From an uncultured Bacilli bacterium (GTDB lineage: Bacteria; Bacillota_I; Bacilli_A; RF39; UBA660), in assembly GCA_944358525.1 (NCBI GenBank), contig CALVRI010000006.1, positions 1 through 47,300 of the forward strand: a DNA stretch of 47,300 nucleotides, in the 5' to 3' direction. A model generated the notes under the pieces. It was not told where the DNA came from. It saw nothing but the letters and a program-made list of their open reading frames with translations, and searched no databases. Both the position numbers and the translations under genes were made by a program. Shown here piece after piece: positions 4,453 through 25,993 of the stretch (its first letter is position 1; each line of letters opens with the position of its first letter).

Positions 4453-4492
4453 TAAAACGATGTGTTATAATAGGAAGGGGGAGACGCAAAAA

Positions 4493-5113
4493 GTGGTTAA
4501 ACAAATTAAATATGTGATTTTTGTTTTAATATGCATGTGCGTTACTCCTTTGATCACACATGCTGAATGTGATTATCAAAGGCAAGCTGAACTTTCTAGA
4601 TTAGCTAGTAATGTTCAGTTAAGCTATGTTTATAATAAAGGAACTGGTTTTCAAGTTATAATGACTAATTTGACAAATGATTTATATGCGGTTGATATGT
4701 ATGGACAGATAATTAATGGTGGTGCAGAAAGAACATTTAGTTATGCAAGTGGTACAGTTTCTTTTGATATTTATGCTACTGATAAATCTTGTTCTGACAA
4801 TAAATTATTAACTAAAACAATTGATTTGCCTATATTAAATGCTTATTCTTATTCCGATGAGTGTAAAAGTTATCCTGGTTTTAGATATTGTCAAGTATGG
4901 GGAAGTTTTTCAATTACACAAGAACAGTTTACGCAAGAACTTGAGGAATATAAAAAAGAAGTAAATGATTCTTTTACTATTGCTGATGATGATTTAAATG
5001 TTTTAAAAATTATTTTAGATACTCTATCTAAGAATGTATTTATGTTTGTGTTTCTTGGGTCTTTAATTATTGTGGTGATTATATATTTACAAGTGAAAAA
5101 AAGGCATAAATAA
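4493..5113 (+). CDS. Secreted, C-terminally membrane-anchored protein of unknown family
   Basis: A GTG start at 4493 is preferred over an upstream in-frame ATG at 4460, because it follows ggaaggggga at a proper distance and begins a clean signal peptide (MVKQIKYVIFVLICMCV... cleaved near THA-EC). The product has 206 residues. The middle is a beta-rich outer domain with four Cys; the last 30 residues hold one transmembrane helix followed by KKRHK, so the C-terminus is anchored. No family is recognised. It lies between the polytopic protein and the 937-residue exoprotein, with a TATAAT at 4466-4471 that may be an internal promoter. Probably a surface component of the same apparatus. Confidence 0.65.
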   Translation: MVKQIKYVIFVLICMCVTPLITHAECDYQRQAELSRLASNVQLSYVYNKGTGFQVIMTNLTNDLYAVDMYGQIINGGAERTFSYASGTVSFDIYATDKSCSDNKLLTKTIDLPILNAYSYSDECKSYPGFRYCQVWGSFSITQEQFTQELEEYKKEVNDSFTIADDDLNVLKIILDTLSKNVFMFVFLGSLIIVVIIYLQVKKRHK

Positions 5114-5125
5114 TAGGAGGTCTTT

Positions 5126-7939: not shown

Positions 7940-7956
7940 TTAGGAGGGGATAAAGC

Positions 7957-8358
7957 ATGAAGGAATCATTTTGGGGCATATTTGTGTTAGGCCTTGGTGT
8001 TATGTCAATATTCTTTATTGTTTTATTTCAAAACTTGACTAATACTGATGAGCACAATTCACAATTATTAAAAGAAGTAACCGAGGCATCTATGTGGGAT
8101 GCATTTGATTATGCTTCTTATAGGACTTCTGGTGAAATTAGAATAGATAGAGAAAAGTTCGTCGAAAACTTTATTAGAAGATATGCTGAAAGTGCTAGTA
8201 TGTCTAGACAATATACAATTAAGTTTTACGATATTAATGAGAAACCACCAAAAGTAAGCTTAAGTGTACAAAGCGGAGTGGTAGGTGTTGGAGGTAGCAC
8301 TCAAATAACATTTGATTTACAAAATAGAATCGATGCTATTTTGGAAGTACCTTATTAA
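7957..8358 (+). CDS. Small single-pass pilin-like/assembly protein
   Basis: A 133-residue protein with one N-terminal hydrophobic helix (about residues 7-26) and a soluble domain containing an amphipathic stretch (TEASMWDAFDYASYRTSGEI), then beta segments. It starts MKES, similar to three other small proteins in the block (12575, 12867 and 13361). It resembles small uncharacterised proteins found next to Tad genes in Firmicutes (I believe DUF5411, not verified). It has the TadE/TadF-like layout, with an N-terminal anchor and outer domain, but I see no clear prepilin-peptidase site. It is immediately followed by cpaB. The ribosome binding site is aggagggg. Confidence 0.6.
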   Translation: MKESFWGIFVLGLGVMSIFFIVLFQNLTNTDEHNSQLLKEVTEASMWDAFDYASYRTSGEIRIDREKFVENFIRRYAESASMSRQYTIKFYDINEKPPKVSLSVQSGVVGVGGSTQITFDLQNRIDAILEVPY

Positions 8359-8384
8359 AATAAAAGAAAAGAGAGGATGAGATT

Positions 8385-9440
8385 ATGAATAATGTAGTGG
8401 CGTCAGCCAAAAAGTTTTTTAAAAACAAAAATGTGGTAACAGTTATTGGAGTTGTTGTGATTCTAATCTTGTTATATGTTGGTTATAGTACACAAATCAA
8501 CAATGCAGTACAACCAGTACAAGTTCCTGTTGCTACACAAACAATACAACCAAGAACAGAAATCACTGATGATATGGTGCAGTTGGTAGATATGCCCAAT
8601 ATTTCACTTAGTGATAATGTTATTAGGTCAAGAACACAAATAGTTGGTAAATATTCAAATGTAAATTCAGTAATTCCTGAGGGAAGTATGTTTTATACTG
8701 ATACAGTAATTTCTGAAGAAGAATTACCTGATGCGGCTTTTACAAAAGTTAAATCTGGTGAGGTTGTTTATAATTTTCCTGTAGATATGGAAAGTACTTA
8801 TGGTAATTCTATTTTTCCTGGTAATTATATTGACATTTATATGAAAGTTGGAGACGGAACTGATGAAAGAATAATGCTAGGAAAGTTAATTGAAAATGTT
8901 GAAGTGTTGGCTGTTAAGGATTCTTCTGGTAGAGCTGTATTTGAAAATACTAGTGAAGAGAGAACTCCTGCTATGTTAATATTTGGATTAAAGAGCAATT
9001 TATATACTATTTTAAAGAAAGCTTCATATATGGATGGCTTGGGTGTTGAACTTTATCCAGTACCACATGGTGGACAAGTTGATACTGAAGGTGCAACTCA
9101 AGTTTCTACTCAACAATTGGTAGATTATATCGATGCACATTCTGTTAATATTCCTGAACCAGAACCAACAACTGAAGAAGATCCATTAATACCAACAATT
9201 GAGGAAACTGGAGGAAATCCTAATACTGTTACAATAACTTTCCCTGATGGTTGTGATGGTACATATACTTGTACATATGTAAAAGATGGTGGAGATAGTC
9301 GAAGAGTAACTAAAAATACTCAAGATATTATTTATACTGCAAATGGTACTTTGACTGCAACAGTTCAGGAAGAAGATGGGACTGCTCATTCAATTACGAC
9401 TGATATACCAATGACTAATTCAACTACAACGGGGCAATAA
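8385..9440 (+). CDS. cpaB: CpaB/RcpC-like Flp pilus assembly protein (SAF domain)
   Basis: A 351-residue protein with a transmembrane helix at about residues 18-35 and a SAF domain from about 45 (VPVATQTIQPRTEITDDMVQ...). A second conserved block follows around 120-215, with a NIDIYMKV-like segment (actually NYIDIYMKV). This is the usual CpaB layout. CpaB proteins help Flp/Tad pili through the envelope. The C-terminus beyond residue 250 is a Pro/Glu/Thr-rich spacer followed by a short beta domain with a Cys pair (PDGCDGTYTC), which is not standard. Two bases separate its stop from the CpaF ATPase start, indicating translational coupling. Confidence 0.85.
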   Translation: MNNVVASAKKFFKNKNVVTVIGVVVILILLYVGYSTQINNAVQPVQVPVATQTIQPRTEITDDMVQLVDMPNISLSDNVIRSRTQIVGKYSNVNSVIPEGSMFYTDTVISEEELPDAAFTKVKSGEVVYNFPVDMESTYGNSIFPGNYIDIYMKVGDGTDERIMLGKLIENVEVLAVKDSSGRAVFENTSEERTPAMLIFGLKSNLYTILKKASYMDGLGVELYPVPHGGQVDTEGATQVSTQQLVDYIDAHSVNIPEPEPTTEEDPLIPTIEETGGNPNTVTITFPDGCDGTYTCTYVKDGGDSRRVTKNTQDIIYTANGTLTATVQEEDGTAHSITTDIPMTNSTTTGQ

Positions 9441-9442
9441 TA

Positions 9443-10801
9443 ATGAATAATATGTTTGACCAAATAGATTTCGGTCATTTGAAACCTTATTTGGAAGATG
9501 ATGATATTACTGATATTTCTTATGATAATGGTGGACAGATACATTTAAAGACTTTATCTAAAGGAATATTTAGAATCGAAAATCCTGCTATTAATAATGC
9601 ATTTATGGAAAAGCTAGCATTTCAATGTTCTAATGTTATGGGTAAGACTTTTAACATGGCACATCCTTTCTTGGATGCCGAGAGTGCAGAGTTACGTTTA
9701 GCTTTTATTCATGAATCTGTTGCACAAAACGGTATTGCTTGTGTTGTTCGTAAAACACCTGCTAAAATACGTTTGCAAAAAGAAAAAATAGTTGCGGATA
9801 AATATGTTGAATTAGATATTATTGATTTTCTAGAACAATGTGTATTAGGTCATTGTAATATGATTGTGTGTGGTGAGACTGGTTCTGGTAAGACTGAGTT
9901 AGTTAAGTATTTAGCATCTAAAATAGCTGATAATGAAAAAGTTATTACAATTGAAGATACTTTGGAACTTCATTTGGATAAGATTTTTCCGCATAGAGAT
10001 ATAGTTGCTTTAAAAACAAATAATATTGCTTCTTATACAGATATATTGGAAGCATGTATGAGACAAAATCCAAAATGGATTTTGCTTTCAGAGGTACGTA
10101 GTGCTGAGGCAGTACTTGCTGTACGTAACTCTATTTCATCTGGACATTATATTTTATCTACTATTCATGCCGATAAAGCTGCTTCTATTCCTAATCGTAT
10201 GTATAGTTTGCTTGAGACTAATCAGGATTTGGATCAGTTTATGAGTTCAATTTGTAGATATATTCAAATTGGTATATATGTTAGAGGATATCAAGATAAG
10301 GCTACCAAAAAATTTAGACGTGAAATAGCAGAGGTTACTGAATTTTATGTAACTAATGATACAAATGAGGCTCGTCATAATGTTATTTATCGTAAAGGAG
10401 CGGATGGAAAAGTCATTAGAAATAATCCGAGTCCTTATTTAATCGATTATCTTGAAGTACAAGGGGTATTTTTACCAAAAGAGCTTCAAAATATGGCTGG
10501 AGAGTCTTATGTTGATAGCAATTCAATGAAGGGTAATGCTGAAGTTCAAGTTGAAAAAAATTTGAAGTCAAATAATTCCACTAATTTAATGAATGATTTT
10601 ACCAATGGACAAGTAGTTCAAACAGAAAATTTACAGGATAATAATGTTTCACCTCAAGTTAATGTTAATAATGGAGTTACTTCAATTAATGATGTAGTTA
10701 GTAATTCTCAAGTTGATGTAAACACTAATCAGACAGTTAGTTCTGATGGTACGATACCTTCATCTACTGCAGAAAATAAAACAGAAAATTTATTTGAATA
10801 A
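9443..10801 (+). CDS. cpaF: CpaF/TadA-type secretion ATPase
   Basis: A 452-residue cytoplasmic motor for Flp/Tad pilus assembly, of the type II/IV secretion ATPase superfamily. The Walker A is GETGSGKT (144-151). The Asp/Glu box is IEDTLELH (170-177), the Walker B region is ILLSEVRSAEA (213-223), and the His box is STIHADKA (239-246). The N-terminal part (residues 1-130) is the usual CpaF N-domain in short form. Residues after about 355 form a long Asn/Ser/Val/Gln-rich tail without predicted structure, which is unusual for CpaF. It is followed by TadB and TadC homologues, so the motor and platform are complete. Confidence 0.92.
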   Translation: MNNMFDQIDFGHLKPYLEDDDITDISYDNGGQIHLKTLSKGIFRIENPAINNAFMEKLAFQCSNVMGKTFNMAHPFLDAESAELRLAFIHESVAQNGIACVVRKTPAKIRLQKEKIVADKYVELDIIDFLEQCVLGHCNMIVCGETGSGKTELVKYLASKIADNEKVITIEDTLELHLDKIFPHRDIVALKTNNIASYTDILEACMRQNPKWILLSEVRSAEAVLAVRNSISSGHYILSTIHADKAASIPNRMYSLLETNQDLDQFMSSICRYIQIGIYVRGYQDKATKKFRREIAEVTEFYVTNDTNEARHNVIYRKGADGKVIRNNPSPYLIDYLEVQGVFLPKELQNMAGESYVDSNSMKGNAEVQVEKNLKSNNSTNLMNDFTNGQVVQTENLQDNNVSPQVNVNNGVTSINDVVSNSQVDVNTNQTVSSDGTIPSSTAENKTENLFE

Positions 10802-10814
10802 AGGAGGGGAAGCT

Positions 10815-11720
10815 ATGACATTTATAATATTTTTAATTGTTTTGGCAATTGCAATATTTGTTATTTTATATCGAAATAATAGTAATAGTAACAATGTTTA
10901 TAAGTTTATAAATAAGAAAATTGGTGTAATTTATGATAAATATGCTCCTTATTCATTTAAAGTAGTTAGAGAAAAGGTTAAGGAGCTTGGTCAAGAATAT
11001 ACTCCAAAACAGTATGCTATTCAAGTTGTAGTATTTGCGGTGAGTGCGGCTGTAGTTACATATTTATATTTCTATAATATTGTAGTTTCACTTATTTATG
11101 CTGCCTTGGCTGTATTAGTTATTCCTTATTTAACTTATTTAAGGTGTAAAAGACTTTATAGTGAATTTATATTTGAACAAATTCAAGTTTATACAACAAA
11201 TACAATAATGGAATTTGCAACTACACAATCTTTTGTTAAAGCATTAGAAGGAGTATATGCTTCAAATGTGCTTGAAGATCCCGTTAAGTCTGATGTTAAA
11301 ATGATGATTGACATGGCTTATGAAAATGGTACTATTGATCAATCACTTAATTATATGAATTCAAAATATGACTTTTATATAGTAAGAAATATGCATCAAT
11401 TGTTTTTACAAATTACAAATGAAGGTGCTAGAGATTCTGGAGAATCTTTAGAAAATATGAGCCAGGATATAGATATGCTTGTTGAAGGTGTTTATCGTGA
11501 TAGAATTGATAGAGCCACATTTCACAAGAAGTTTTTGCAATTTGGTATTATACTTTATTTAATGGTCATGCTTGTTCAATTTATGCTTGGTATGGAAACT
11601 TATAATCAAATGCTTGGAGATTGGTGGGTTCAAGTGTTGTTACATGGTATTATTTGGCTAAATACATTCTTTCTACTTTCTGGTGAAAAATATTATAATG
11701 AAGATGTGGGGGCGGAATAA
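10815..11720 (+). CDS. tadB: TadB-like inner-membrane platform protein (T2SS F family)
   Basis: The ATG at 10815 directly follows aaggagggga and gives 301 residues; an upstream in-frame start inside cpaF has no ribosome binding site. It starts with a transmembrane helix (about residues 2-20) and has paired helices around 70-110. The cytoplasmic GspF-type domain carries the pattern FATTQSFVKALEGVY, and two C-terminal helices follow. TadB and TadC form the membrane platform on which CpaF acts. The stop codon is directly adjacent to the ATG of tadC (11721). Confidence 0.85.
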   Translation: MTFIIFLIVLAIAIFVILYRNNSNSNNVYKFINKKIGVIYDKYAPYSFKVVREKVKELGQEYTPKQYAIQVVVFAVSAAVVTYLYFYNIVVSLIYAALAVLVIPYLTYLRCKRLYSEFIFEQIQVYTTNTIMEFATTQSFVKALEGVYASNVLEDPVKSDVKMMIDMAYENGTIDQSLNYMNSKYDFYIVRNMHQLFLQITNEGARDSGESLENMSQDIDMLVEGVYRDRIDRATFHKKFLQFGIILYLMVMLVQFMLGMETYNQMLGDWWVQVLLHGIIWLNTFFLLSGEKYYNEDVGAE

Positions 11721-12515
11721 ATGGGTATAGGTTTAACGTTTATAATTATTGCAGTTATTGTGATATTTTTGCTTGAATACAACAACCATTTCAGCTCTAA
11801 TAAATTTATTAAAGAAACTGCGCCATATTTTAGAACTATGATGGAATCTGATTATGAATTTTTACTTAAGGTAAGATATGGTGGAGATGTTGATGTAAAC
11901 AAAATGTATGGATTAAGGGTTCGTAATGGAATTATTGGAATTATATTTTGTTTGTTTATATTTATGGATCAGCTTTCATTTGCTTATGTTTTACTTTCTT
12001 TATTGATTGGCTTTGCTTTATTTAAGTTGCCTTATATGCAGTTAAGTAGTTATTATAAGCAAAATTTGCATAAAATTAATTTAATGCTTCCATACTATTT
12101 AAAGGGACTAGAAATTTTAATTCAACATTATACAGTCCCGGTAGCACTTGCAAGATCAATTGAAACAGCACCAGAGATCTTTAAACCTGGTTTGCAAAAA
12201 TTGGTAGCTAAAATTGATGCGGGTGATTCTTCTGTACAACCTTATATGGATTTCGCTAGTGAATATCCAGTTCGTGATTCAATGAGAATGATGAGACTTT
12301 TGTATCGTTTAGGACTTGGTAGTCAAGAAAATAAACAAGAACAATTACTTATGTTTTCACGTACAATTTCTTCTTTACAAAATAAAGCTCGTGAACAAAA
12401 ATATAAAGAACGTCTAGAAAAGATGGAAAACAAGACAATGATGATGTTATTTTGTACAGGAGGAGGAATTTTAGGTTTTCTACTTTTGTCAATGATGATG
12501 ATGATGAATTATTAA
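11721..12515 (+). CDS. tadC: TadC-like inner-membrane platform protein (T2SS F family)
   Basis: A 264-residue partner of TadB. It has one N-terminal helix, a helix pair around residues 75-105, and the GspF cytoplasmic domain (LPYYLKGLEILIQHYTVPVA, then SIETAPEIFKPGLQKLV). A C-terminal helix ends in a run of Met. It is translated directly after tadB with no spacing; the ribosome binding site ggggcgg lies in the tadB end. A repeated atg run near the stop (12491-12505) gives the MMMMM end. Confidence 0.85.
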   Translation: MGIGLTFIIIAVIVIFLLEYNNHFSSNKFIKETAPYFRTMMESDYEFLLKVRYGGDVDVNKMYGLRVRNGIIGIIFCLFIFMDQLSFAYVLLSLLIGFALFKLPYMQLSSYYKQNLHKINLMLPYYLKGLEILIQHYTVPVALARSIETAPEIFKPGLQKLVAKIDAGDSSVQPYMDFASEYPVRDSMRMMRLLYRLGLGSQENKQEQLLMFSRTISSLQNKAREQKYKERLEKMENKTMMMLFCTGGGILGFLLLSMMMMMNY

Positions 12516-12538
12516 GTGTAGTAAAATATTTTAAACTA

Positions 12539-12547
12539 TGTTATAAT
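12539..12547 (+). promoter_or_regulatory. Extended -10 promoter of the small pilin gene
   Basis: TGTTATAAT is an extended -10 (TGn plus TATAAT). It lies in the 59-bp gap after tadC and 28 bases before the 77-aa pilin-like gene. With the terminator at 12821-12842 it makes a separate short transcript. Confidence 0.6.
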
Positions 12548-12574
12548 TAAAAATAGGAGGGTAGGTGATTAGTT

Positions 12575-12808
12575 ATGAAGGAAGCAGCTGGTGAGGCTAA
12601 CTTAACTGTTGTAGCTATTATTTTGATTGGTGTTGTTGTTGCTGTTGTTACTCCACTTGTTACAAGCTTAATGAGTAGTTCTGCTGAAAAAGCTTGTTGC
12701 TCAGATGCTGGTGGAATTTGGAGAAATGGAAGTTGTCAAGCTGGTAGTAGTGCATATGATGCATCTGGTTATCGTGATTGTGTTAATGAGGCTACAGCAA
12801 ATCAATAA
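12575..12808 (+). CDS. Small Flp-like major pilin candidate (77 aa)
   Basis: A 77-residue protein beginning MKEAAGEANLTVVAIILIGV, with a single strongly hydrophobic helix (residues 10-33). A short outer domain carries three closely spaced Cys (ACCSDAGGIW...GSC) and one more near the end (RDCVNE). Size and layout fit a Flp-type pilin placed after tadC, though the usual G/xxxxE cleavage motif is not clear; GE at residues 6-7 is the only candidate site. It has its own promoter and its own terminator, and a very strong ribosome binding site (aggagggtaggtgat). That fits a highly expressed structural subunit. The function is inferred. Confidence 0.65.
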   Translation: MKEAAGEANLTVVAIILIGVVVAVVTPLVTSLMSSSAEKACCSDAGGIWRNGSCQAGSSAYDASGYRDCVNEATANQ

Positions 12809-12820
12809 GATTTAAATATG

Positions 12821-12842
12821 CTTGCTTTAGAGCAAGTTTTTA
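12821..12842 (+). terminator. Intrinsic terminator after the pilin gene
   Basis: cttgct (12821-12826), loop ttag, agcaag (12831-12836), then a T run. It is a clear short hairpin that would end or attenuate the pilin transcript, with some read-through expected into the following genes. Confidence 0.8.
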
Positions 12843-12866
12843 TTGGATATTAAGGTGGTGATTTAA

Positions 12867-13364
12867 ATGCGTGAAAGTATTGGTAGTGTATTTTTATACA
12901 ATATAATTATTTTATTTGTAATTATAGTTTTTGGTTTACTTTCGGCTACTATAAGTTACTATAAAGCATTTAAAGTTAACGAAAGAATACTTTATTCTTT
13001 GGATAAATTTGAGGGATATAATCAATTTTCTGAGGCAGAAATAGAGGATTATTTGGTGAGTATTGGTTATACTTATAGTCCTACTGGTCAAGATGCTTGT
13101 CCTGAGGAGAAAGATGGCGGAACTTTAATTCGCTCTAATAGTGCTAAACATTTATATTGTGTTTATTATTTTTCGGATGATAGAGGTAGTAATGAGAAAG
13201 ATAGACTTAATGGTGATGATGAACCAATTTACTATAATTATGCGTTAACTAGTTATATTTATGTAGATTTACCAATTGTTGGTGCATTTAAATTACCTGT
13301 TTATACTAAAGGCGAGAGGATATATAATTTCAGTGATAGTCAAGAACAGGGGGCGATAATATGA
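12867..13364 (+). CDS. Minor pilin-like protein A (165 aa)
   Basis: Starts MRESIGSVFLYNIIILFVII, a single N-terminal helix (about residues 8-30), followed by YYKAFKVNERI and a beta-rich outer domain with two Cys (DACPEE and LYCVYYF). It is a paralogue of the next gene. Both share the [SY][YS]KAFKV segment after the helix, a CVYxF strand, and a late strand of the form D[LV]PI. The layout resembles TadE/TadF minor pilins. Its TGA stop overlaps the next ATG (ATGA), so the two are coupled. Confidence 0.6.
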   Translation: MRESIGSVFLYNIIILFVIIVFGLLSATISYYKAFKVNERILYSLDKFEGYNQFSEAEIEDYLVSIGYTYSPTGQDACPEEKDGGTLIRSNSAKHLYCVYYFSDDRGSNEKDRLNGDDEPIYYNYALTSYIYVDLPIVGAFKLPVYTKGERIYNFSDSQEQGAII

Positions 13365-13846
13365 AAGAGGCAATTGCTAATGCGGGCATTTATAACTTGG
13401 TAATTATATTTGTTATAATTTTGCTTGCTTTCTTTATAGGTTCCCTTTCTTATTCAAAAGCTTTTAAAGTTAAAAATAAGATAATTGAAGAAATTGAAAA
13501 GGATCAAGGATATACAACTGGTATTAATGATTCTACTGAGGATAGAGTAGAAGAGTGGATTTCAAGTATTGGTTATAGAATTAATACAGGAAATACTAGA
13601 AATACCGAAAATTGTCCTACAGTAACTGGTAATGGTGGTGAAACGGGAAAACTTGTAAATACTGATGGTGATTATCAGTATTGTGTTTATGAGTTTGATA
13701 CATGTACTGCTGGTTCTGATAAAGCAAAATGTGGTAAATATTATCGTGTTACAGCTTATATGTATTTTGATGTACCAATTTTAAGTGGGTTGCTTAAATT
13801 ACCTGTAAGTGGTGAGACTATGATATTTAATGAGATAGATAGTTAA
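13361..13846 (+). CDS. Minor pilin-like protein B (161 aa)
   Basis: A 161-residue paralogue of the preceding protein. It has N-terminal MKEAIANAGIYNLVIIFVII, one helix, then SYSKAFKVKNKI. The outer domain has an extra Cys pair (DTCTAGSDKAKC) besides the shared NCPT and YCVYEF cysteines. Both end with a D[LV]PI segment followed by a K-L-P-V strand. Probably a minor pilin or pseudopilin of the Tad-like machine, possibly forming a dimer with its neighbour. Start codon overlap of 4 bases with the upstream gene suggests equal expression. Confidence 0.6.
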   Translation: MKEAIANAGIYNLVIIFVIILLAFFIGSLSYSKAFKVKNKIIEEIEKDQGYTTGINDSTEDRVEEWISSIGYRINTGNTRNTENCPTVTGNGGETGKLVNTDGDYQYCVYEFDTCTAGSDKAKCGKYYRVTAYMYFDVPILSGLLKLPVSGETMIFNEIDS

Positions 13847-13861
13847 GGAGGCGAAGGATAA

Positions 13862-14872
13862 GTGAATGTAATAGTTGCTAACAAATATCGTGATGCATTA
13901 GCTGGTTTAGATATTGAAGTTATAAAAAAACTAGAAGGAGAATATACTGTTGATGAGATTATTGGGACATTTGAGAATTTCTTCTTTAATAAAATGATTT
14001 TAGATGTTACAGCTTTAAAAGATTATAAAAATATTAAAACTTTACAAAAGTTGTCTTTGTCGCTTGATGTAGATAAAGTTATTTTACTGTTAGATGGTTC
14101 ACCTGAAACTTCAGATCCTGAATATTTATCTGATTTAATTTCGATGAGAATATATAATTTTACTATGAATGTTGAAGGTGTAAAATGGCTTTATGAACAT
14201 CCAAATAGTTATCGTGATGTTGCTCAATATCATCAATTAGATACAACTCATGGAGCATCTTATAATAATGCAGTACCATCTTCTAGTCCTTATCAAGAGT
14301 TTAAAAAGAATACAATTATTTGTTTTAAAGATATTACACCTGGAGCAGGCTCAACAACTTTAACATATATTGCAAAAAAACAATTAGCCCGTAATTATGA
14401 TGTTGTGGCTATTGAGGTGGATAAACACGATTTTATGTATTTTGATGAAGACAAGATGTATAGTGTGTCTAGTAATGGGCTTGGTAATACTATATCTAAG
14501 TATAGTAATTCGGATGTTATTTTAATTGATGCGAATAGTAGTTCTGTAGCTGAGGGGTTTGCTAGTGAAACAATTTATTTGTTAGAACCTTCTAAGATTC
14601 AACTTAACAAGTTATTGGCACGTGATCCGAACGTCTTAGAACGTAGTAAAAATAAGAAAATTGTATTAAATCAATGTATGCTTAGTGATCAAGATGTTTC
14701 TGATTTTGAGTATGAAACTGGTTTAAGTGTGTTTTATAAAATTCCACCACTTAATGATCAAAGTTCTAATAATGCTGATTTAGATAAATTTTTGGTTAAA
14801 TTAGGATTTTATAAACAAGATGTTTCTGGTGGTGAAAGTAATAAAAAAGGATTTATGGGGTTATTTAAATAA
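13862..14872 (+). CDS. CpaE/TadZ-like ParA-superfamily protein with degenerate P-loop
   Basis: GTG start after aaggaggcgaagg; 336 residues. The N-terminal 110 residues look like a receiver-type fold (strands at VDKVILLLD). From residue 150 comes a MinD/ParA-like domain: IICFKDITPGAGSTTLTYIA stands where the deviant Walker A (KGGxGKT) should be, but the P-loop Lys is missing (GAGSTT, Ser164 in its place). Later strands VVAIEVD and DVILIDA match the MinD layout. CpaE/TadZ proteins place the Tad machine at the cell pole; some members are poor ATPases. It is the last gene before a gap with a transposon relic. Confidence 0.7.
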   Translation: MNVIVANKYRDALAGLDIEVIKKLEGEYTVDEIIGTFENFFFNKMILDVTALKDYKNIKTLQKLSLSLDVDKVILLLDGSPETSDPEYLSDLISMRIYNFTMNVEGVKWLYEHPNSYRDVAQYHQLDTTHGASYNNAVPSSSPYQEFKKNTIICFKDITPGAGSTTLTYIAKKQLARNYDVVAIEVDKHDFMYFDEDKMYSVSSNGLGNTISKYSNSDVILIDANSSSVAEGFASETIYLLEPSKIQLNKLLARDPNVLERSKNKKIVLNQCMLSDQDVSDFEYETGLSVFYKIPPLNDQSSNNADLDKFLVKLGFYKQDVSGGESNKKGFMGLFK

Positions 14873-15146: not shown

Positions 15147-15509
15147 ATGAATTTAGTTAACGTTTTGGATTATTGTACTGGTATTTTTGAAAATGGGCAA
15201 GGTATTCCAGATGGAATAGGAAATGTTGTTCATTTAATTATAATAGCTATTCAAGTGGTTGTACCAATATTACTTATTATTTGGGGTATGATTGATTTTG
15301 CTAAGGCTATTATTGGACAAGATGAAGACAAAATTAAAGCTGGGCAAAAGACTTTTATAAAAAGATTAATTGCTGCGGTTGTCGTATTCTTAATTGTTAC
15401 CATCGTTCAACTTGCTATTAATTTAGCTGTAAGTGTTTCTGAGTCTGGAGACGGAAATGAAGCTCAAACAGCTTGGAATTGTGCTTATGAGTTGATTAGC
15501 GGTAAATAA
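15147..15509 (+). CDS. VirB2/TrbC-like pilin subunit 1 (120 aa)
   Basis: 120 residues with two hydrophobic helices (about 28-52 and 75-96) joined by a short charged loop (GQDEDKIKAGQKTFIKR). This is the VirB2/TrbC pattern in which the loop is cytoplasmic and both ends lie outside. A Cys precedes the first helix (DYCTG) and another follows the second (WNCAYE), a pair that recurs in three paralogues. No cleaved signal peptide is seen. In type IV systems such proteins build the pilus or line the channel. Strong promoter and ribosome binding site (agaggagg) suit a structural subunit. Confidence 0.75.
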   Translation: MNLVNVLDYCTGIFENGQGIPDGIGNVVHLIIIAIQVVVPILLIIWGMIDFAKAIIGQDEDKIKAGQKTFIKRLIAAVVVFLIVTIVQLAINLAVSVSESGDGNEAQTAWNCAYELISGK

Positions 15510-15529
15510 ATAGAAAGTGGGAATCGGAT

Positions 15530-15922
15530 ATGAATTTATTTTATGTGTTAGATGCTGCTGACTCAACATTATGTGAAGGTATTTTAGTACCAAATGTTTT
15601 GTTTAATGTAGTGTCAACAATTATTACAGGTATTAAAATTGTAGTTCCAATATTACTTATTATTTGGGGTATGCTTGATTTTGCTAAATCTGTAGTTGCT
15701 AAAAAAGAAGAAGATATAAAAAAATATCAAAAAGCATTCGTATCACGTCTTATTTCTGCTTTAGTTGTATTTTTGATTATATTTATTGTTCAACTTGCTG
15801 TTAATTTAATTTCAGGTGTTGAAGATAGTACTAATCCAGATGGTACTACTGTTAGCGATATTTGGAGCTGTAGCAAGAAATTTATTAATGGTGTTGATAC
15901 AAATAATGAAACAAGTGAATAG
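15530..15922 (+). CDS. VirB2/TrbC-like pilin subunit 2 (130 aa)
   Basis: A paralogue of the preceding gene. Both share VPILLIIWGM[IL]DFAK, a charged loop (KKEEDIKKYQKAFVSR), then a second helix ending in IVQLAVNLI. It again has one Cys before the first helix (STLCEG) and one after the second (IWSCSK). The product ends with a short hydrophilic tail. The ribosome binding site (gaaagtggga) is weaker than that of subunit 1, so it may be made in smaller amounts from the same transcript. It is followed by a terminator. Confidence 0.75.
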   Translation: MNLFYVLDAADSTLCEGILVPNVLFNVVSTIITGIKIVVPILLIIWGMLDFAKSVVAKKEEDIKKYQKAFVSRLISALVVFLIIFIVQLAVNLISGVEDSTNPDGTTVSDIWSCSKKFINGVDTNNETSE

Positions 15923-15948
15923 AGTTATCGTTAGATAATTCTTTTTTT
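15922..15948 (+). terminator. Intrinsic terminator after the two VirB2-like genes
   Basis: gagttatc (15922-15929) pairs with gataattc (15934-15941; one G-T pair) across the loop gtta, followed by seven T. It begins at the last base of the stop codon. Confidence 0.7.
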
Positions 15949-15979
15949 CTGCAAATGTAAAGTTTTATATGTAAAATAT

Positions 15980-16007
15980 TTGTTGGTTAGATAATTTATG
16001 ATATAAT
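15980..16007 (+). promoter_or_regulatory. Promoter of large pilin-fusion gene 1
   Basis: TTGTTG (15980-15985), 16-bp spacer, TATAAT (16002-16007) with an extended TGA. The surrounding sequence (taaaatattt ... aatttatgatataatg) recurs upstream of the next paralogue, so the promoter was duplicated along with the gene. Confidence 0.6.
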
Positions 16008-16034
16008 GATTATAGTTTGAAAGTTAGGGATAAT

Positions 16035-17060
16035 ATGAAAAGATGTTTAAAATACTTATTTTTTTGTTTTTTTGTTTTTACTGTTATAATTAATAGTAAT
16101 GTTAAAGCTGCTCCAAAAGCTATTGCATGTGATTATGGTATTGTGTGTACTTATTCTTTGCCTTATCTTAGTGTGACAGCTGGTGGTCATTCTTATGCAA
16201 ATGCGTATTTAGGCATATATTATCAGTGTAAAGACAATTCTAAAAAACTATCTGAATGTACTACTTTTGAGAGTGCCGCATATTCTTCCATTTTAAAATA
16301 TAATTCTCAAGGTGGAGTAGATAAGGTATCTTTTAATAATTATGATGATATATTTTATGCGACCGATACTTACAAAGATAAATTTAATTATAACGGTCAA
16401 TTTAAATGTCCAGTTATTTTTTATCATGGAAGCGGTGGAGGTACTGCTAATCCTAATGTAACTTTATATTATAATAAATCAGATGCGGGTAAAGATATAA
16501 ATGATTATAATGGTGCTACCTTAAAAGATAATGCTTGTATATCTAAAAATACAAATGTAGATTGGTCAAAACTTACAGATACTATAGATCAGGGTGCAGA
16601 AGCTTCACCGTTAGAAATGGCTGGTAGTACAGCTGATGAAGATATTCGTGGTGATTCTGAGAATCCTGAAGATCTTGGCGAAGATGCTGCTATATTAGAT
16701 GCAATAAATAAGTGGGGAAATAGTGGCGATAGTACTCGCTATAATCAAGACTCAGTTGATCCTTGTGATTTAATAAGTGATGATATACAAGATTTATTAC
16801 ATAATATATTTTTCTTTATTAGTGTTGCGGGGATAATTATTTTAGTAGCTATGACTGCTATAAGTCTAGTGAAAGTAATAACTGCTAGTGAAGATGAAGC
16901 TTTAAGAAACTTTTTTAAAGGTTTATGGAAGAGAATTATATGTTTAATTATATTGTTGATATTACCTACACTTGTGACATTTATTGTACAGCTTGTAAAT
17001 AATGTTGCACCAGGTTTAGGTATTAGAAGTGATAATCCTTTGTGTAATGTTACTGAATGA
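16035..17060 (+). CDS. Cys-rich ectodomain fused to a VirB2-like module (paralogue 1)
   Basis: The ATG at 16035 gives 341 residues with a signal peptide (MKRCLKYLFFCFFVFTVIIN... cleaved near VKA-AP); a TTG six codons upstream is less likely. The ectodomain (about residues 28-230) has several Cys (ACDYGIVCTY, YQCKD, FKCPV). Residues 242-341 form a two-helix module like the VirB2 subunits: DPCDLI before helix 1, the loop TASEDEALRNFFKGLWKR, helix 2 ending FIVQLVNN, and a last Cys in DNPLCN. I infer a pilus-tip or adhesin subunit that assembles through the shared module. The last 303 bases are nearly identical to the next gene. Confidence 0.7.
   Translation: MKRCLKYLFFCFFVFTVIINSNVKAAPKAIACDYGIVCTYSLPYLSVTAGGHSYANAYLGIYYQCKDNSKKLSECTTFESAAYSSILKYNSQGGVDKVSFNNYDDIFYATDTYKDKFNYNGQFKCPVIFYHGSGGGTANPNVTLYYNKSDAGKDINDYNGATLKDNACISKNTNVDWSKLTDTIDQGAEASPLEMAGSTADEDIRGDSENPEDLGEDAAILDAINKWGNSGDSTRYNQDSVDPCDLISDDIQDLLHNIFFFISVAGIIILVAMTAISLVKVITASEDEALRNFFKGLWKRIICLIILLILPTLVTFIVQLVNNVAPGLGIRSDNPLCNVTE
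16758..17060 (+). repeat. Direct repeat copy 1 (303 bp), 3' module of the paralogous fusions
   Basis: Matches 17914-18216 without gaps at a constant offset of 1156 bp. Encodes the VirB2-like module. The two translated copies differ at only seven of 100 residues, while the 5' ectodomains are far apart. Confidence 0.9.
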
Positions 17061-17072
17061 TAAAATATTTAT

Positions 17073-17100
17073 TTGTTATCTTGTTAATTTATGATATAAT
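17073..17100 (+). promoter_or_regulatory. Promoter of large pilin-fusion gene 2
   Basis: TTGTTA (17073-17078), 16-bp spacer, TATAAT (17095-17100) with an extended TGA. It has the same surroundings as the promoter at 15980-16007. It serves paralogue 2 and perhaps the downstream type IV genes, since no terminator is seen until 25921. Confidence 0.6.
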
Positions 17101-17130
17101 GTATATAAGGTAGAGAAGGTAGGGCATGCT

Positions 17131-18216
17131 ATGAAAAAATATGTTATATCTTTTTTAATTTTTGTTAGTGTTTTGTTTGTCAATCTAAGTAGAGTAGAGG
17201 CAACTAATAATGTAGATGGTGGAGGAAATACTAGCAGTGATGGTAATTCATGCGAGTATGGTATTATATGTAATTATGAATTTTGTGTGCGCCGCGGTCA
17301 AGCTTCTGATAAAGGGTATTTGGCTTTATCTTGTCCACAAAATAGTGGAAACGTCGTTTTATCTGTTGCATATACATGTTCTTCTTCTGGGGTTTCGTCT
17401 GCTAATTGTGATTCGTTTGTTTCGTGGGCAAAGATCGCAAGAAATAATGCAACTAGTTATGTGAATGTTAATTTTGGAAATTATGATGAAGTATTTCACA
17501 ATGCTGATTATTTAAAAGATAAATTTAAGAAGAGTGGCTCTTTTTCTTGCCCTTCTTATTATGTTTCGTTATCAGATGCTTTGGATGATGATAAATATAG
17601 TTTTAGTTTTACGAATAATGGTGGTAGATTTATTTCTCCAAATGGAACTAGTGATAAAAAATATTCTTCTCAAGAATGTATAAATAAAAATACTACTACT
17701 TCAGAAATTAATGCTAGGCTACAAGAAATTACTACTAAGAGAGCTTCTGACACTTCAATTGATCAAATTGAAGAGGAAAAAGATTTTTATAGTGGTGATT
17801 CAGATTATTCGTATATTGATTGTGAAGTTGAGGAAAATAAGGATTCAATTATTTGTTCAATACTTAATTGGGGAAATGCTTTAGGGACAACAAAATATGA
17901 TCCTAATAGTTTAGATCCTTGTGATTTAATAAATGGTCAAATACAAGCTTTATTGCATAATATATTTTTCTTTATTAGTGTTGCGGGGATAATTATTTTA
18001 GTAGTTATGACTGCTATAAGTCTAGTGAAAGTAATAACTGCTAGCGAAGATGAGGCTTTAAGAAACTTTTTTAAAGGTTTATGGAAGAGAATTATATGTT
18101 TAATTATATTGTTGATATTACCTACACTTGTGACATTTATTATACAACTTGTAAATAATGTGGCTCCAAGTTTGGGTATTAGAAGTGATAATCCTTTATG
18201 TAATGTTACTGAATAG
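17131..18216 (+). CDS. Cys-rich ectodomain fused to a VirB2-like module (paralogue 2)
   Basis: 361 residues; signal peptide MKKYVISFLIFVSVLFVNLS... cleaved near VEA-TN. The ectodomain has the same frame of Cys motifs as paralogue 1 (SCEYGIICNYEFC, YTCSSS, GSFSCPSYY, ECINKNT) and a shared NYDE/NYDD-D...KDKFK block, but most of it has diverged. From about residue 262 the VirB2-like module is almost the same as in paralogue 1. This looks like a duplicated subunit whose exposed part changes while the assembly part is held constant, by selection or gene conversion. Followed 14 bases on by the VirB6-like gene. Confidence 0.7.
   Translation: MKKYVISFLIFVSVLFVNLSRVEATNNVDGGGNTSSDGNSCEYGIICNYEFCVRRGQASDKGYLALSCPQNSGNVVLSVAYTCSSSGVSSANCDSFVSWAKIARNNATSYVNVNFGNYDEVFHNADYLKDKFKKSGSFSCPSYYVSLSDALDDDKYSFSFTNNGGRFISPNGTSDKKYSSQECINKNTTTSEINARLQEITTKRASDTSIDQIEEEKDFYSGDSDYSYIDCEVEENKDSIICSILNWGNALGTTKYDPNSLDPCDLINGQIQALLHNIFFFISVAGIIILVVMTAISLVKVITASEDEALRNFFKGLWKRIICLIILLILPTLVTFIIQLVNNVAPSLGIRSDNPLCNVTE
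17914..18216 (+). repeat. Direct repeat copy 2 (303 bp), 3' module of the paralogous fusions
   Basis: Partner of 16758-17060; same length, no gaps. Long stretches, including the region coding for ISVAGIIILV, match base for base including silent positions, which suggests recent duplication or ongoing gene conversion. Confidence 0.9.
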
Positions 18217-20318: not shown

Positions 20319-20645
20319 ATGAATTTCTTAATTCCTGCAAATACAAAAAAATCAATGTTGATTTTTGGTATTTTTACAACATTTGATTTGATATTATTTG
20401 GAGTTGGAATAGGAGTTACAATACTGCTTTTAATGATTGTGAGACCAAGTTCTTTACTAACGGCATGTATTGATTTGGCTCCGGCTGTTATATGTGGTTT
20501 TTTGGTACTTCCGGTACCTAATTACCACAATATTAGAGTTGTTATTCAAGAGGTATATACCTTTTATACCAAAAGACAAAGATTTATATGGAAGGGCTGG
20601 TGTGTGAAAGATGAGTACGGAGAATCGAAGCAAATATACAAATGA
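20319..20645 (+). CDS. PrgI/VirB3-like inner-membrane protein
   Basis: 108 residues: a short start (FLIPANTKKS), two adjacent transmembrane helices (about 17-42 and 48-66), then PVPNYHNIRVVIQEVYTFYTKRQRF. This is the PrgI-family layout found directly before VirB4 in Gram-positive type IV systems. Its 3' end overlaps the next coding region by 35 bases, so translation is coupled. Confidence 0.85.
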   Translation: MNFLIPANTKKSMLIFGIFTTFDLILFGVGIGVTILLLMIVRPSSLLTACIDLAPAVICGFLVLPVPNYHNIRVVIQEVYTFYTKRQRFIWKGWCVKDEYGESKQIYK

Positions 20646-21156
20646 TTTTGTACCTATAAAATCAATTACAAATGGTATTATTATTACTGATAATAATGAT
20701 AAGATTACAGGGATAAAGATTTTTCCTAGAAATATCTTTATTTTGGAACCAGATATGCAAAATATGATTATTAATAATTTGAGAAATGTTTACAATTTAA
20801 TTGATTATGAGTTTTGGATTATTGCAGCTGATAGACCTGTTGATATTACTGCTTATTTATCTAGATTACAATTACTTTATAATTCACAAACTAGTCCAGT
20901 AAAAAGAAAACTTATTATGGATGATATTAATAAAGCGAATATGTTTACTACTAATAATGTTGTTGATACTGAATTTTATTTATTATTTAAAGAGAATGAT
21001 ATGGATAAAATTCAGAAAAAGATTAGAAATTTAATTCAAGCTTTTGCTAGTGCTGGACTTAATGCTACACAAACATCGAATGATGATTTAAGAATTATTT
21101 TAGATAATTTCTTAAATGGTGGAACTACCACAACATTTGGGACGGTGATGAGTTAA
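20611..21156 (+). CDS. VirB4 N-terminal domain as a separate polypeptide
   Basis: 181 residues corresponding to the N-terminal non-ATPase domain of VirB4: YTNDFVPIKSITNGIIITDN, then WIIAADRPVDI, VDTEFYLLF, and a late DDLRIILDNFLNGG. In typical VirB4 proteins this is followed in the same chain by the ATPase part. Here a TAA stop overlaps the next ATG in TAATG (21154-21158). It begins inside the PrgI gene. The domain looks intact, so the split is more likely stable than a fresh frameshift, but a -1 shift or sequencing error is not excluded. Confidence 0.75.
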   Translation: MSTENRSKYTNDFVPIKSITNGIIITDNNDKITGIKIFPRNIFILEPDMQNMIINNLRNVYNLIDYEFWIIAADRPVDITAYLSRLQLLYNSQTSPVKRKLIMDDINKANMFTTNNVVDTEFYLLFKENDMDKIQKKIRNLIQAFASAGLNATQTSNDDLRIILDNFLNGGTTTTFGTVMS

Positions 21157-22940
21157 TGGATATAAGAACGCAGATTGCCCCTAAAGGGTTAGAATTTAAA
21201 CCTAGTAGTTTTATTACTAGTGATAAATATTGTACTATATTAACTGTTATTAGTTATCCTAAAATTATTAATCCTGGTTTTTTATCTGATTTGACAAGTA
21301 TGGCAGGAGTTAAGATGGTAATTAAACATATCCCACTTCCATTTGGTGTTATTCAGAAGATGATTAATAAAGAAATTGCTGATCAAAAAGCTCGTTATCA
21401 AGAAGAACACGATGTGACAATACAAGAAAAAATTCGTCAGGATTATGAGTCTTTGGAAGAATTTATCAAACAATTAGCAGCAAGTCAATCTAAAATTTAT
21501 GATTTTCAGTTACATCTAATGATTACGGCTGATTCTGATGAAGAATTAACTTCTAAAAAATTACAACTCAGAAGTTATTTGGAAGCTATGGATATGAGAG
21601 CAATACCTTTAAGATTTGAACAAGAAAAAGTACTTAAAAGTATGCTTCCCATTTTTCCAAAACAAGATATTGAAGATAGAATTGGTACTCCAATTCCTTC
21701 ACCAACACTTGCGGCAATGTATCCATACGTATTTGATAGTATAAAAGATCCAGGATTGTCTACTTTACTTGGTGTTGATTTTTCTGGTGGTGTTGTTTTA
21801 TTTAACCAGTTTTTATATCAAGTTCAAAAAGAACACAATAGAAATAATGCGAACATGATTATTTTAGGTACTTCTGGTAGTGGTAAATCTACAGCTGCTA
21901 AATTACTTTTAAGAAGTCATATTAGAAATGATTATAAAATAGTTGTTATTGATCCTGAGGGTGAACTTGAAGAGATGACAAGACTTTATGGTGGAGATTT
22001 CATCGATTTAGGTAAAGGTGGAGAATTTGGTATGATTAATCCACTTGAGATTATTATGGATGCTGATGAAGATGAGATGAAACAAGGTTTGGGGTATGCT
22101 GTACTTACTAGATCTTTGCAAACAGTAAAAGCATTTATGAAATATTATGATCCTTCTATTACTGAAGATGTTATAAATGTATTTAGTGAAATGGTACAAG
22201 AAACGTATAAACGTTTTGGTATTGATTTTAATACAGATTTTACTCATTTCACTTCTAAAGATTATCCTACTTTTAAAGATGTATATGCGACAGTTAGAGG
22301 AAAAATTACGGCAATGCCTGAACAAAGTAAAGAAAGAGAAATACTTGAGCAATTAGAATTGAAACTTCGTCCATTGATTGGTGAGTTAAGATTTTATTTT
22401 GATGGCAATACAACAATTTCTCCAAAGAGTAATTTTATAGTATTTAATATTAGAGAATTAATGAATACGGATACAAATATTAGAAATGCTTTATTCTTTA
22501 ATGTTTTAAAATATGCTTGGAGTTTAACTCTTGATCCTAATATTAATACAATTCTTACTGTGGATGAAGCTCACGTTCTTTTATCTGGAAATAATACTTT
22601 AGGGGCTGATTTCTTAGCTCAAGTTCAAAGACGTGCTCGTAAATACAATACAGGTACAATTATAATTACACAGCAACCTACAGATTTTAGTGATCCTATG
22701 GTTATTACACAGGGTAAAGCTATATTTGATAATGCGTCTTATTATTTAGTGATGGGACTTAGAAAACAGGCTGTTGAAGATTTATCAAAACTGATAGACT
22801 TAAATGATAATGAAAAAGAAAGTATAAAGGGATATAATCAAGGTGAAGCTTTGTTTGTATGTGGAAGTAAGAGAATGAGAATAAATGTTGTAGTTACTCA
22901 ACAAGAATTAGATTCATTTGGTTCTGGAGGAGGACTATAA
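21156..22940 (+). CDS. VirB4-type ATPase (central and C-terminal part)
   Basis: 594 residues. It begins with IAPKGLEFKPSSFITSDKYC, the linker to the VirB4 core. Walker A is GTSGSGKST (238-246), followed by VVIDPEGE (about 263-270); Walker B is TVDEAH (468-473). A later RRARKYNTGTIIITQQPTDF is the usual sensor/arginine-finger region. This hexameric motor powers type IV substrate transfer and pilus formation. Together with the preceding 181-residue piece it adds up to normal VirB4 length (775). The start is coupled to the upstream stop by TAATG. Confidence 0.93.
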   Translation: MDIRTQIAPKGLEFKPSSFITSDKYCTILTVISYPKIINPGFLSDLTSMAGVKMVIKHIPLPFGVIQKMINKEIADQKARYQEEHDVTIQEKIRQDYESLEEFIKQLAASQSKIYDFQLHLMITADSDEELTSKKLQLRSYLEAMDMRAIPLRFEQEKVLKSMLPIFPKQDIEDRIGTPIPSPTLAAMYPYVFDSIKDPGLSTLLGVDFSGGVVLFNQFLYQVQKEHNRNNANMIILGTSGSGKSTAAKLLLRSHIRNDYKIVVIDPEGELEEMTRLYGGDFIDLGKGGEFGMINPLEIIMDADEDEMKQGLGYAVLTRSLQTVKAFMKYYDPSITEDVINVFSEMVQETYKRFGIDFNTDFTHFTSKDYPTFKDVYATVRGKITAMPEQSKEREILEQLELKLRPLIGELRFYFDGNTTISPKSNFIVFNIRELMNTDTNIRNALFFNVLKYAWSLTLDPNINTILTVDEAHVLLSGNNTLGADFLAQVQRRARKYNTGTIIITQQPTDFSDPMVITQGKAIFDNASYYLVMGLRKQAVEDLSKLIDLNDNEKESIKGYNQGEALFVCGSKRMRINVVVTQQELDSFGSGGGL

Positions 22941-22963: not shown

Positions 22964-25183
22964 ATGAATCCATTGAAAAAATTAACAGGTAAATTTTTTG
23001 GGAATAAAGGCAAGAAAAAACAAACGGATCCTGTTAGCAAAATTTTAACCGTTAAGGCTAAAATCATGACATATGGAATAGGTGTTAGTATTGCCTTTTT
23101 TGTGGCTATTATTGCTGTTATTTTAGCTGTAGTTAGTTATTTCTTAGGTTTTGTACAAGAAAATGTCGAAAGAGTAGGAAATTTATTACGTGGTGGTTGT
23201 ATTTTATGTACTACTGAAGAATTGGAACAGATGAAAGAAGATCAGTTTTATACTAAAATTAGAATTATTAAAGAAGAAGGTGGCAGCAAGATTGATGATG
23301 CTGTTTTAGCTTCTACTGTGTTATTCCAAGGAGAATATACTGATATTATTGATTCTTTATATGATGAAGAATTTGACGAGGCTGATTTTGCTGATCATGT
23401 TTCTAACTTTTTTGATTCTCTAAGTGTAACAGGTGATCATCAATACAAAGGTGTTACTCAAGAACAAATTGATTTATTAGATGCTGCGGCTCTTATTATG
23501 GTAAATTCAAATGTTGATGGAAAATATAATGAGGACAGTTATAAAAAAGCTTTAGTAAATCCTGGATTTGGTTCTGATAATTGGTTTATAGATGGAGCTT
23601 CTTGTATCACTAGTGCTTTGAATGATATTGTTGATGGTTTTGTTAGTGCAATACCATTGATTCCGCTTATTACTGGTGGCGGAAATGTCGTTGATAATAC
23701 AAATCGATTTTTTAATACAGCATCTATTTGTGCTGAAGGATTTATTGGTGGTACTTATGATAATATAGCCTCTATTTCCGATGAGGAGCAAAAGCAAAGA
23801 AAAAAGGAAGAAATTGCGCAAAATATTATAGATTTTGCTAAGTTTTACAGACAATTGTTTCCTGAAACGACTGCTAATAATGCTGCTGGTTCTGTTTGCT
23901 ACTATAAGGTTCCTTATATAGATGAAGAAATTTCTAATTTAAAAGTACAAACTATTCAATGTGAATCTGGTAATGTGACTGGTGGTCCATATGATGATAT
24001 TGCGACTGAAGGTTTAATTGATTTTGAAAATATTTATGTTCCTGGTGTAGTTTATGCTGAATTTGGTGGAGCAGATGAAGAAACAATGAAAGCACAAGCT
24101 GTGGCAACACGTAGTTATGCTTTGACTAGACATATGCCTGGTGCTAATATTGGAATTACCTTGGAAGATGGACAATGGGTTTTGCGTATTAGGACTTGTA
24201 CTTCTGATCAGGTATTTTGTCACCCTGTATTAGGTTGTCATTCAATTACTGGTAGTATGCAAGGAACCACTAGTGGTGGAGATACTGTGTATGCTGGTGC
24301 TGATGATAGTGGAAATTATACTAGGCCACCAATGTCTGAGGATAGTCCGGTATTGGAGAGAGTTAAAGCTACTAAAGGTGAGGTTGCTGTAGATTCTTCT
24401 GGTACAGTAGTTAATACAGGGTTTGTTTCAACTGATCAAAATGCTTGGGCATCAATGGCAGCTGGTGGAATGAATTATAAAAATATTATTATTAATTACT
24501 ATAGTAATAAAGGGGTTTCTGATGTTAAGTCTGATTGCCGTGGTGGCGGTAATGGTATATATACAACTGAACAATTGGAAGAGTATGTTCAATTATCAGA
24601 TGCAGCTCCAGTTACTAATAATTGGGCTAATGCGGATTTATCATCAACTGAATATGGATCTATTGAAGGCCTTAGTCAACATATTAAAGATAGTGTAAAC
24701 AATGCTGGTTATGGTACTAGAGAAAGTGTAGTTGCAGCTGGTGTGTCTTTGATTGGTGATTATATAAGGGCAACTGGCAAAAGAGCGAGATATGATCAAG
24801 CTCAAAGACATCCTTGGGAAGTTGAGGGTATTATTAGAGATAACTTATATTTTGACTGTAGTAGTTTTGCTTGGTGGGCTTTGTATAATGGAGGTTTTAA
24901 AGTTCCAACTCATGCTTATACTGGTGATCAACGGAGTTGGGCAAATAGCAATGGTTATTTAAAAACTCCTGGTCCTGGTGTTGGCCAAGGTGGAGATTTC
25001 TTGATTAGTGGTGGTCATATTATTTTGATAATTGGTAATTATGATGGCGGTTATTATGTGGCTCATGCATCTAGTTGGACTAATGGCTTAAAGATTAATA
25101 AGCTTGATTATAATTCTGCTAGAGCATCATATGATGTAATAGATATGACAGAATATTATAATAATTCAAGTAATGTAAGGTGA
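22964..25183 (+). CDS. Membrane-anchored SpoIID + NlpC/P60 peptidoglycan hydrolase
   Basis: 739 residues. One transmembrane helix lies at about 37-63, then about 290 residues of mostly helical, acidic sequence. Next is a SpoIID/LytB domain (about 350-515) with YVPGVVYAEFG (Glu366 as candidate catalytic acid) and MKAQAVATRSYAL. The C-terminal domain (about 585-730) is NlpC/P60-like: Cys632 in DCSSF, His685 in SGGHIILIIG, and His701 as a possible third residue. It should cut both glycan strands and stem peptides to let the machine cross the wall. In known Gram-positive conjugation systems this role is filled by SLT+CHAP or SLT+NlpC proteins, so a SpoIID partner is unusual. Ribosome binding site taggtggtg. 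Confidence 0.85.
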   Translation: MNPLKKLTGKFFGNKGKKKQTDPVSKILTVKAKIMTYGIGVSIAFFVAIIAVILAVVSYFLGFVQENVERVGNLLRGGCILCTTEELEQMKEDQFYTKIRIIKEEGGSKIDDAVLASTVLFQGEYTDIIDSLYDEEFDEADFADHVSNFFDSLSVTGDHQYKGVTQEQIDLLDAAALIMVNSNVDGKYNEDSYKKALVNPGFGSDNWFIDGASCITSALNDIVDGFVSAIPLIPLITGGGNVVDNTNRFFNTASICAEGFIGGTYDNIASISDEEQKQRKKEEIAQNIIDFAKFYRQLFPETTANNAAGSVCYYKVPYIDEEISNLKVQTIQCESGNVTGGPYDDIATEGLIDFENIYVPGVVYAEFGGADEETMKAQAVATRSYALTRHMPGANIGITLEDGQWVLRIRTCTSDQVFCHPVLGCHSITGSMQGTTSGGDTVYAGADDSGNYTRPPMSEDSPVLERVKATKGEVAVDSSGTVVNTGFVSTDQNAWASMAAGGMNYKNIIINYYSNKGVSDVKSDCRGGGNGIYTTEQLEEYVQLSDAAPVTNNWANADLSSTEYGSIEGLSQHIKDSVNNAGYGTRESVVAAGVSLIGDYIRATGKRARYDQAQRHPWEVEGIIRDNLYFDCSSFAWWALYNGGFKVPTHAYTGDQRSWANSNGYLKTPGPGVGQGGDFLISGGHIILIIGNYDGGYYVAHASSWTNGLKINKLDYNSARASYDVIDMTEYYNNSSNVR

Positions 25184-25963: not shown

Positions 25964-25993
25964 ATTGTTGACTAATTAATGGAGGGTTTGTAT

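Follow-up and report, generated by a model that had tools for sequence, protein, structure and literature searches.

Four neighbouring genes of an uncultured Bacilli bacterium encode proteins which, judged by their sequences, are homologous VirB2-like (PF18895-type) hairpin modules, two of them short and two with N-terminal display domains. Each module is bracketed by one cysteine on either side. On balance we favour the reading that a disulfide joins the N-tail and the C-tail cysteine within one subunit, which would make these proteins an analogue of the peptide-cyclised conjugative pilins; the bond, its intramolecular nature and the assembly into a pilus are what we infer.

The pilin array and its gene neighbourhood

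The sequence analyzed, here referred to as the window, is a stretch of 47,300 nt of contig CALVRI010000006.1 (assembly GCA_944358525.1). The four ORFs were found on the plus strand where an earlier note on this DNA had placed them, and the cysteine pair was confirmed in each (Table 1). The common architecture described there, a helix, a charged loop ending in K/S-R and a helix with V/IQL, was borne out in all four. The modules of the 341- and 361-aa proteins carry an extra cysteine inside helix 2 (RIICL), which was absent from the earlier note. For the 341-aa protein an alternative upstream TTG start at 16017 would lead to 347 aa.

The pilin genes are located between a TadZ-like gene and virB6, an order that recurs in relatives, most of which have the TadZ-like gene upstream of their pilin genes. 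Genes for a PrgI-like protein, VirB4 (two ORFs), a SpoIID/NlpC protein and VirD4 follow after virB6. The locus encodes a T4SS that is chromosomal, linked to Tad genes and found in an order of Bacilli. With regard to MPF_FATA systems, the VirB4 and VirD4 ATPases were present and an associated relaxase was not found in a PF03432 search of the genome (80% complete), whose sole PF03432 relaxase belongs to a separate ICE on contig 3.

VirB4 is split into ORFs of 181 and 594 aa rather than being encoded by one, and relatives have VirB4 loci that match almost the whole of the 594-aa part. Among the Tad genes, Pfam matches were obtained for RcpC and TadA only, and the others were assigned by position and size. 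Two of the Tad pseudopilin-like proteins (12575-13846), of 77 and 161 aa, each have four cysteines or four ectodomain cysteines, an even number as again in the pilins (see below). A large exported protein of 937 aa with 30 ectodomain cysteines and no informative Pfam match (5126-7939) adjoins the Tad genes.

Table 1. Features of the pilin locus in the window
Feature	Position	Strand	Remarks
Upstream Tad-type pilus genes	8385..14872	+	RcpC/CpaB, TadA ATPase, TadB/TadC-like, three small pseudopilin-like genes, TadZ-like
Short VirB2-like pilin 1, 120 aa	15147..15509	+	hairpin ~residues 22-98; bracketing C10 (DYCTG) and C112 (WNCAY)
Short VirB2-like pilin 2, 130 aa	15530..15922	+	bracketing C15 (TLCEG) and C114 (WSCSK); 50% identity to pilin 1
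Long VirB2-like protein, 341 aa from ATG	16035..17060	+	signal peptide, Cys-containing N-terminal domain, C-terminal hairpin between C244 (DPCDL) and C337 (PLCNV)
Pilin module of the 341-aa protein	16779..17060	+	homogenised copy; DNA identity includes flanks
Long VirB2-like protein, 361 aa	17131..18216	+	signal peptide, beta-rich N-terminal domain, hairpin 269-344 between C264 (DPCDL) and C357 (PLCNV)
Pilin module of the 361-aa protein	17935..18216	+	homogenised copy; DNA identity includes flanks
VirB6/TrbL-like, 691 aa	18231..20306	+	N-terminal hairpin weakly matches PF18895, without flanking Cys; internal control
PrgI/VirB3-like	20319..20645	+	PF12666, 18.0 bits, below cut-off
VirB4 ATPase, two ORFs	20611..22940	+	20611-21156 N-terminal part by position, no Pfam match; 21156-22940 ATPase part
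SpoIID/NlpC-P60-like cell-wall protein	22964..25183	+	putative VirB1-like role
VirD4/TraG coupling ATPase	25979..28357	+	PF02534, 195.5 bits

Within the family 175 of 193 genomes contain homologues, and within the order 134 of 146 sampled genomes do. Searching and start calling were done mechanically, and many of the genomes are incomplete. In a class-wide draw just two genomes from outside the family reached E 1e-3, both marginally. The array is almost absent from the rest of the class. The relatives are uncultured metagenomic Bacilli including Candidatus Coprosoma and Faecisoma, and a scan of viral contigs revealed no relatives.

Family identity

The whole-protein scores of the four window proteins against PF18895 were 17.4, 18.9, 24.5 and 22.3 bits, all below the gathering cut-off of 26.6, and in a search of the genome the two long modules scored 28.8 and 26.7 bits, above it. 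The short members also hit several unrelated membrane families with comparable E-values, and the identity therefore rests on the relatives. Here, PF18895 was the commonest Pfam match (33/60 short and 21/32 long forms, best E 1.3e-9). Short and long modules are homologous to each other (hhalign 99.3%, E 1.8e-20). The combination typical of PF18895, a two-helix hairpin beside T4SS genes, is present in the window. PF04956 (TrbC/VirB2) was matched neither by the four window proteins nor among the families listed for the 60 and 32 relatives; the pilin of the ICE in this genome scored 27.6 against 27.9 for this family. The VirB2-like identity proposed earlier is thus supported by the most frequent match and by the operon position beside VirB6, PrgI and VirB4.

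The proteins could instead be hairpin membrane components of the VirB6-associated inner-membrane complex of the T4SS that carry the same disulfide, an alternative which is compatible with disulfide closure and which we regard as possible but doubtful. It would fit the ambiguous matches of the short members, the PF18895-like hairpins of VirB6 and a statement in a study on Patescibacteria that VirB2 pilins are missing from the Gram-positive classes of T4SS (PMC12102498). The predominance of PF18895 among the matches of the relatives speaks against it, as does the resemblance of the arrays to the VirB2 arrays of Patescibacteria (PMC12102498).

The AF2 model of pilin 1 (mean pLDDT 74) contains helices at residues 22-56, 60-98 and 105-118, and C10 falls into a stretch of low confidence, which counts against disulfide closure. 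The model of the 361-aa protein (mean pLDDT 67) shows the hairpin. In 32 homologues of the latter C264 and C357 were both invariant, and C47 and C140 of the N-terminal domain nearly so. Fold assignment of both models by VIA-align returned generic helical hairpins only (Z < 7), so no fold is claimed. A PDB sequence search with profile A1 gave no matches.

Homogenised pilin modules

The modules of the 341- and 361-aa proteins share 94% DNA identity including the flanks. The bracket which the earlier note had reported for four proteins was therefore observed in all of them and represents three independent examples, not four. In the window and in six further loci (L035, L037, L046, L049, L209, L246) each pair of long paralogues has modules with a DNA identity of 85-98% next to N-terminal parts at background level. 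Between L035 and L037 the N-terminal parts of the first genes share 60% of amino acids, compared to 37% and 44% with their own paralogue, whereas the modules are 96-97% identical within a genome and 74-77% between the genomes. The same pattern was found for L046 and L049.

Judged from these identities, the modules undergo concerted evolution, probably by gene conversion. The pattern suggests that variable display domains are carried on a common pilin module.

Conservation of the cysteine pair

In a first survey both cysteines were present in 213 of 214 modules, and the sole exception (L023) was cut by the end of the locus. Low-scoring copies were then added on purpose to find exceptions, resulting in 328 distinct modules that were scored for cysteines within 20 residues before and 25 residues after the module. 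Two cases were corrected by hand, L174 for a late start call and L052 for a long C-tail, and both count as having the pair. Cysteines in both tails were found in 323 of the 328 modules and, among modules at less than 60% identity, in 151 of 154. Cysteine makes up 4-8% of the tail residues compared to 0.2-0.3% within the module.

The idea of the earlier note that the two cysteines belong together was not refuted by a check for homologues that lose them at random: the N-tail cysteine alone was never found, the C-tail cysteine alone twice (L169, L218) and neither cysteine three times, once in L226 and twice in L246. Loss was linked (table [[323,0],[2,3]], Fisher p=1.7e-6, kinship among modules ignored). 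Both the two modules with a C-tail cysteine only and the origin of the joint losses from just two genomes count against disulfide closure. The two cysteine-less copies of L246 have a module that is 98% identical and represent one event. In L226 the paralogue adjoining the cysteine-less copy retains both cysteines at matching places (FTCSTF and DISNCGIA vs HGIIFV and DISIYGVG), which is a direct view of joint cysteine loss.

As a control, the N-terminal hairpin of VirB6 encoded in the same operons was analyzed. No cysteine in either flank was found in 70 of 71 orthologues, and none of the 71 had cysteines on both sides. Since 323 of 328 modules have both, chance is ruled out. The pair is also absent from the PF18895 proteins of Mycoplasma-type genomes (TGA = Trp) and from the ICE-type T4SS pilin of the same genome, which is cysteine-free and has a relaxase gene nearby. 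The feature is thus a property of the pilin array rather than of the fold, of the genome or of the Pfam family. To our knowledge, the VirB2 sequence of Agrobacterium has no flanking cysteine pair.

The second T4SS of this genome, of ICE type, is found on contig 3 (12000-31000, locus L144; at 3543-14064 therein) and comprises a relaxase, a coupling protein, a cysteine-free TrbC/PF18895-like pilin, VirB6, VirB4 and a putative cell-wall enzyme.

Cysteine parity was determined for 145 short pilins in which the module starts too early to allow a signal peptide. The number of tail cysteines was even in 143 of these (46/48 non-redundant), and where cysteines beyond the basic pair were present the extra number was even in 62 of 63 (19/20 non-redundant). 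Short pilins with four cysteines and a C-tail of the type CxxCF...C are common (e.g. L057 6833-7171, L062 6880-7230, L065 6824-7177 and many others), and some loci pair them with two-cysteine forms.

The CxxCF with another cysteine behind it in many C-tails could point to a metal or redox cofactor (Zn or Fe-S) bound at the outer face of the pilin. Such a site is highly improbable, as the gap between CxxC and the next cysteine varies between 4 and 13 residues, and as 81 of the 145 short pilins have exactly one cysteine per tail. Even more remote is the idea that the N-tail cysteine serves for lipoprotein attachment and has no relation to the C-tail cysteine. A lipobox-like context occurs at 30 of 318 N-tail cysteines and is missing at the remaining 288, most short forms lack a signal peptide, and lipidation would leave linked loss and even cysteine numbers unexplained. 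Both readings were rejected.

Topology and redox setting

The mean net charge is +3.0 for the loop and -1.8 and -1.9 for the tails, the loop being the most basic part in 322 of 328 modules, and the long forms have signal peptides. From this asymmetry and the signal peptides the loop is probably cytoplasmic with both tails outside, in support of the external ends assumed in the earlier note.

DsbA was not matched in the genome itself and VKOR not in 58 genomes of the family, and both results count against disulfide closure, as does a host that is probably an anaerobe, given its relatives from animal guts. CcdA-like DsbD_TM was found in only some genomes of the same genus and is absent from this one. 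The genome encodes exported or anchored thioredoxin-fold proteins with the motifs CPHC, CSAC and CSYC. Furthermore, 18 of its 19 ectodomains with at least two cysteines have an even number (simple ORF calling, ~0.47 Mb, window proteins included). These two observations make disulfide formation in this organism plausible. Candidate thiol oxidoreductases, lipoproteins or membrane-anchored proteins of thioredoxin fold with CSAC, CPHC and CSYC, are located in L291 (1108-1512), L292 and L278 (15286-16137).

Proposed closure of the pilin tails

From the earlier proposal of a disulfide that closes the module or links neighbours in a pilus, the VirB2-like identity, the external ends and the co-conservation of the cysteines have stood up; the bond, the choice between one subunit and two, and the pilus are still inferred. 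We propose that the hairpin would be inserted into the membrane in such a way that its basic loop faces the cytoplasm and the two tails lie on the outer side. An extracytoplasmic thiol oxidoreductase may then link the N-tail to the C-tail cysteine, turning each hairpin into a covalently closed ring, and VirB6, VirB3 and VirB4 would draw the closed subunits together as a short pilus or a channel. Such a disulfide would take the role of backbone cyclisation in TrhA and RP4 TrbC, locking the tails and stabilising an exposed filament. In the four-cysteine forms a second disulfide could be formed within the C-tail.

A bond from the N-tail cysteine to the C-tail cysteine of a neighbour, possibly of another paralogue, would result in a covalently laddered filament or ring. 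It predicts the same co-loss, and nearly every paralogue of the array, with several per genome, keeps one cysteine per side. We nevertheless consider this arrangement unlikely. The spacing between helix and cysteine varies widely (mostly 6-15 residues before and 5-22 after the module), which would be easier to reconcile with a flexible link inside one subunit than with a fixed contact in a lattice, and the L226 paralogue next to the doubly lost copy retains both cysteines.

Comparison with known systems

As the earlier note had suspected, a described VirB2 family with a cysteine bracket was not found in the open-access literature. The PF18895 family (T4SS_pilin / Mbov_0395, NF045849) resembles the window pilins in its two-helix hairpin, charged loop and location beside VirB6, PrgI and VirB4, and the long forms of the window reached 22-29 bits across searches. 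Its Mycoplasma members differ by lacking the flanking cysteine pair and a display domain, and the profile comparison with them was weak (66.7% probability, helix 2 only).

The arrays of Patescibacteria are alike in grouping several divergent pilins of the PF18895/VirB2-like type in the vicinity of virB4, usually with no relaxase (PMC12102498). The array studied here differs in its Bacilli order and its linkage to Tad genes; the parts of the text on which the comparison is based mention no cysteine pair for Patescibacteria (PMC12102498). The archaeal CedA1/TedC DNA-transfer pili, which belong to a T4SS relative in monoderm cells, are likewise built from VirB2-like pilins, in a paper that mentions neither cysteines nor disulfides (PMC9905601). 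VirB2 of Agrobacterium, with periplasmic tails and a basic cytoplasmic loop, shares the topology deduced from charge for the window pilins, and its C64S variant supports nearly wild-type substrate transfer (PMC4074166).

A parallel in topology is provided by IncH TrhA and RP4 TrbC, two-helix conjugative pilins whose N- and C-tails are joined by a peptide bond, as demonstrated by structure and by mass spectrometry, respectively (PMC11722321). Gram-positive T4SS classes are said to be without VirB2 pilins, and what pilins gain from cyclisation is unsettled. The bracket on almost every paralogue, the few natural double losses and a cysteine-free pilin in the same cell allow a direct test of what covalent closure of the tails does. 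Tentatively, a whole Bacilli order may use disulfide closure in place of backbone cyclisation, with nearly every paralogue of a fixed chromosomal T4SS closed and some carrying variable surface domains on gene-converted modules. The same ring would then be reached in two ways, by a backbone peptide bond after C-terminal cleavage in TrhA and TrbC and by the proposed disulfide in the window pilins.
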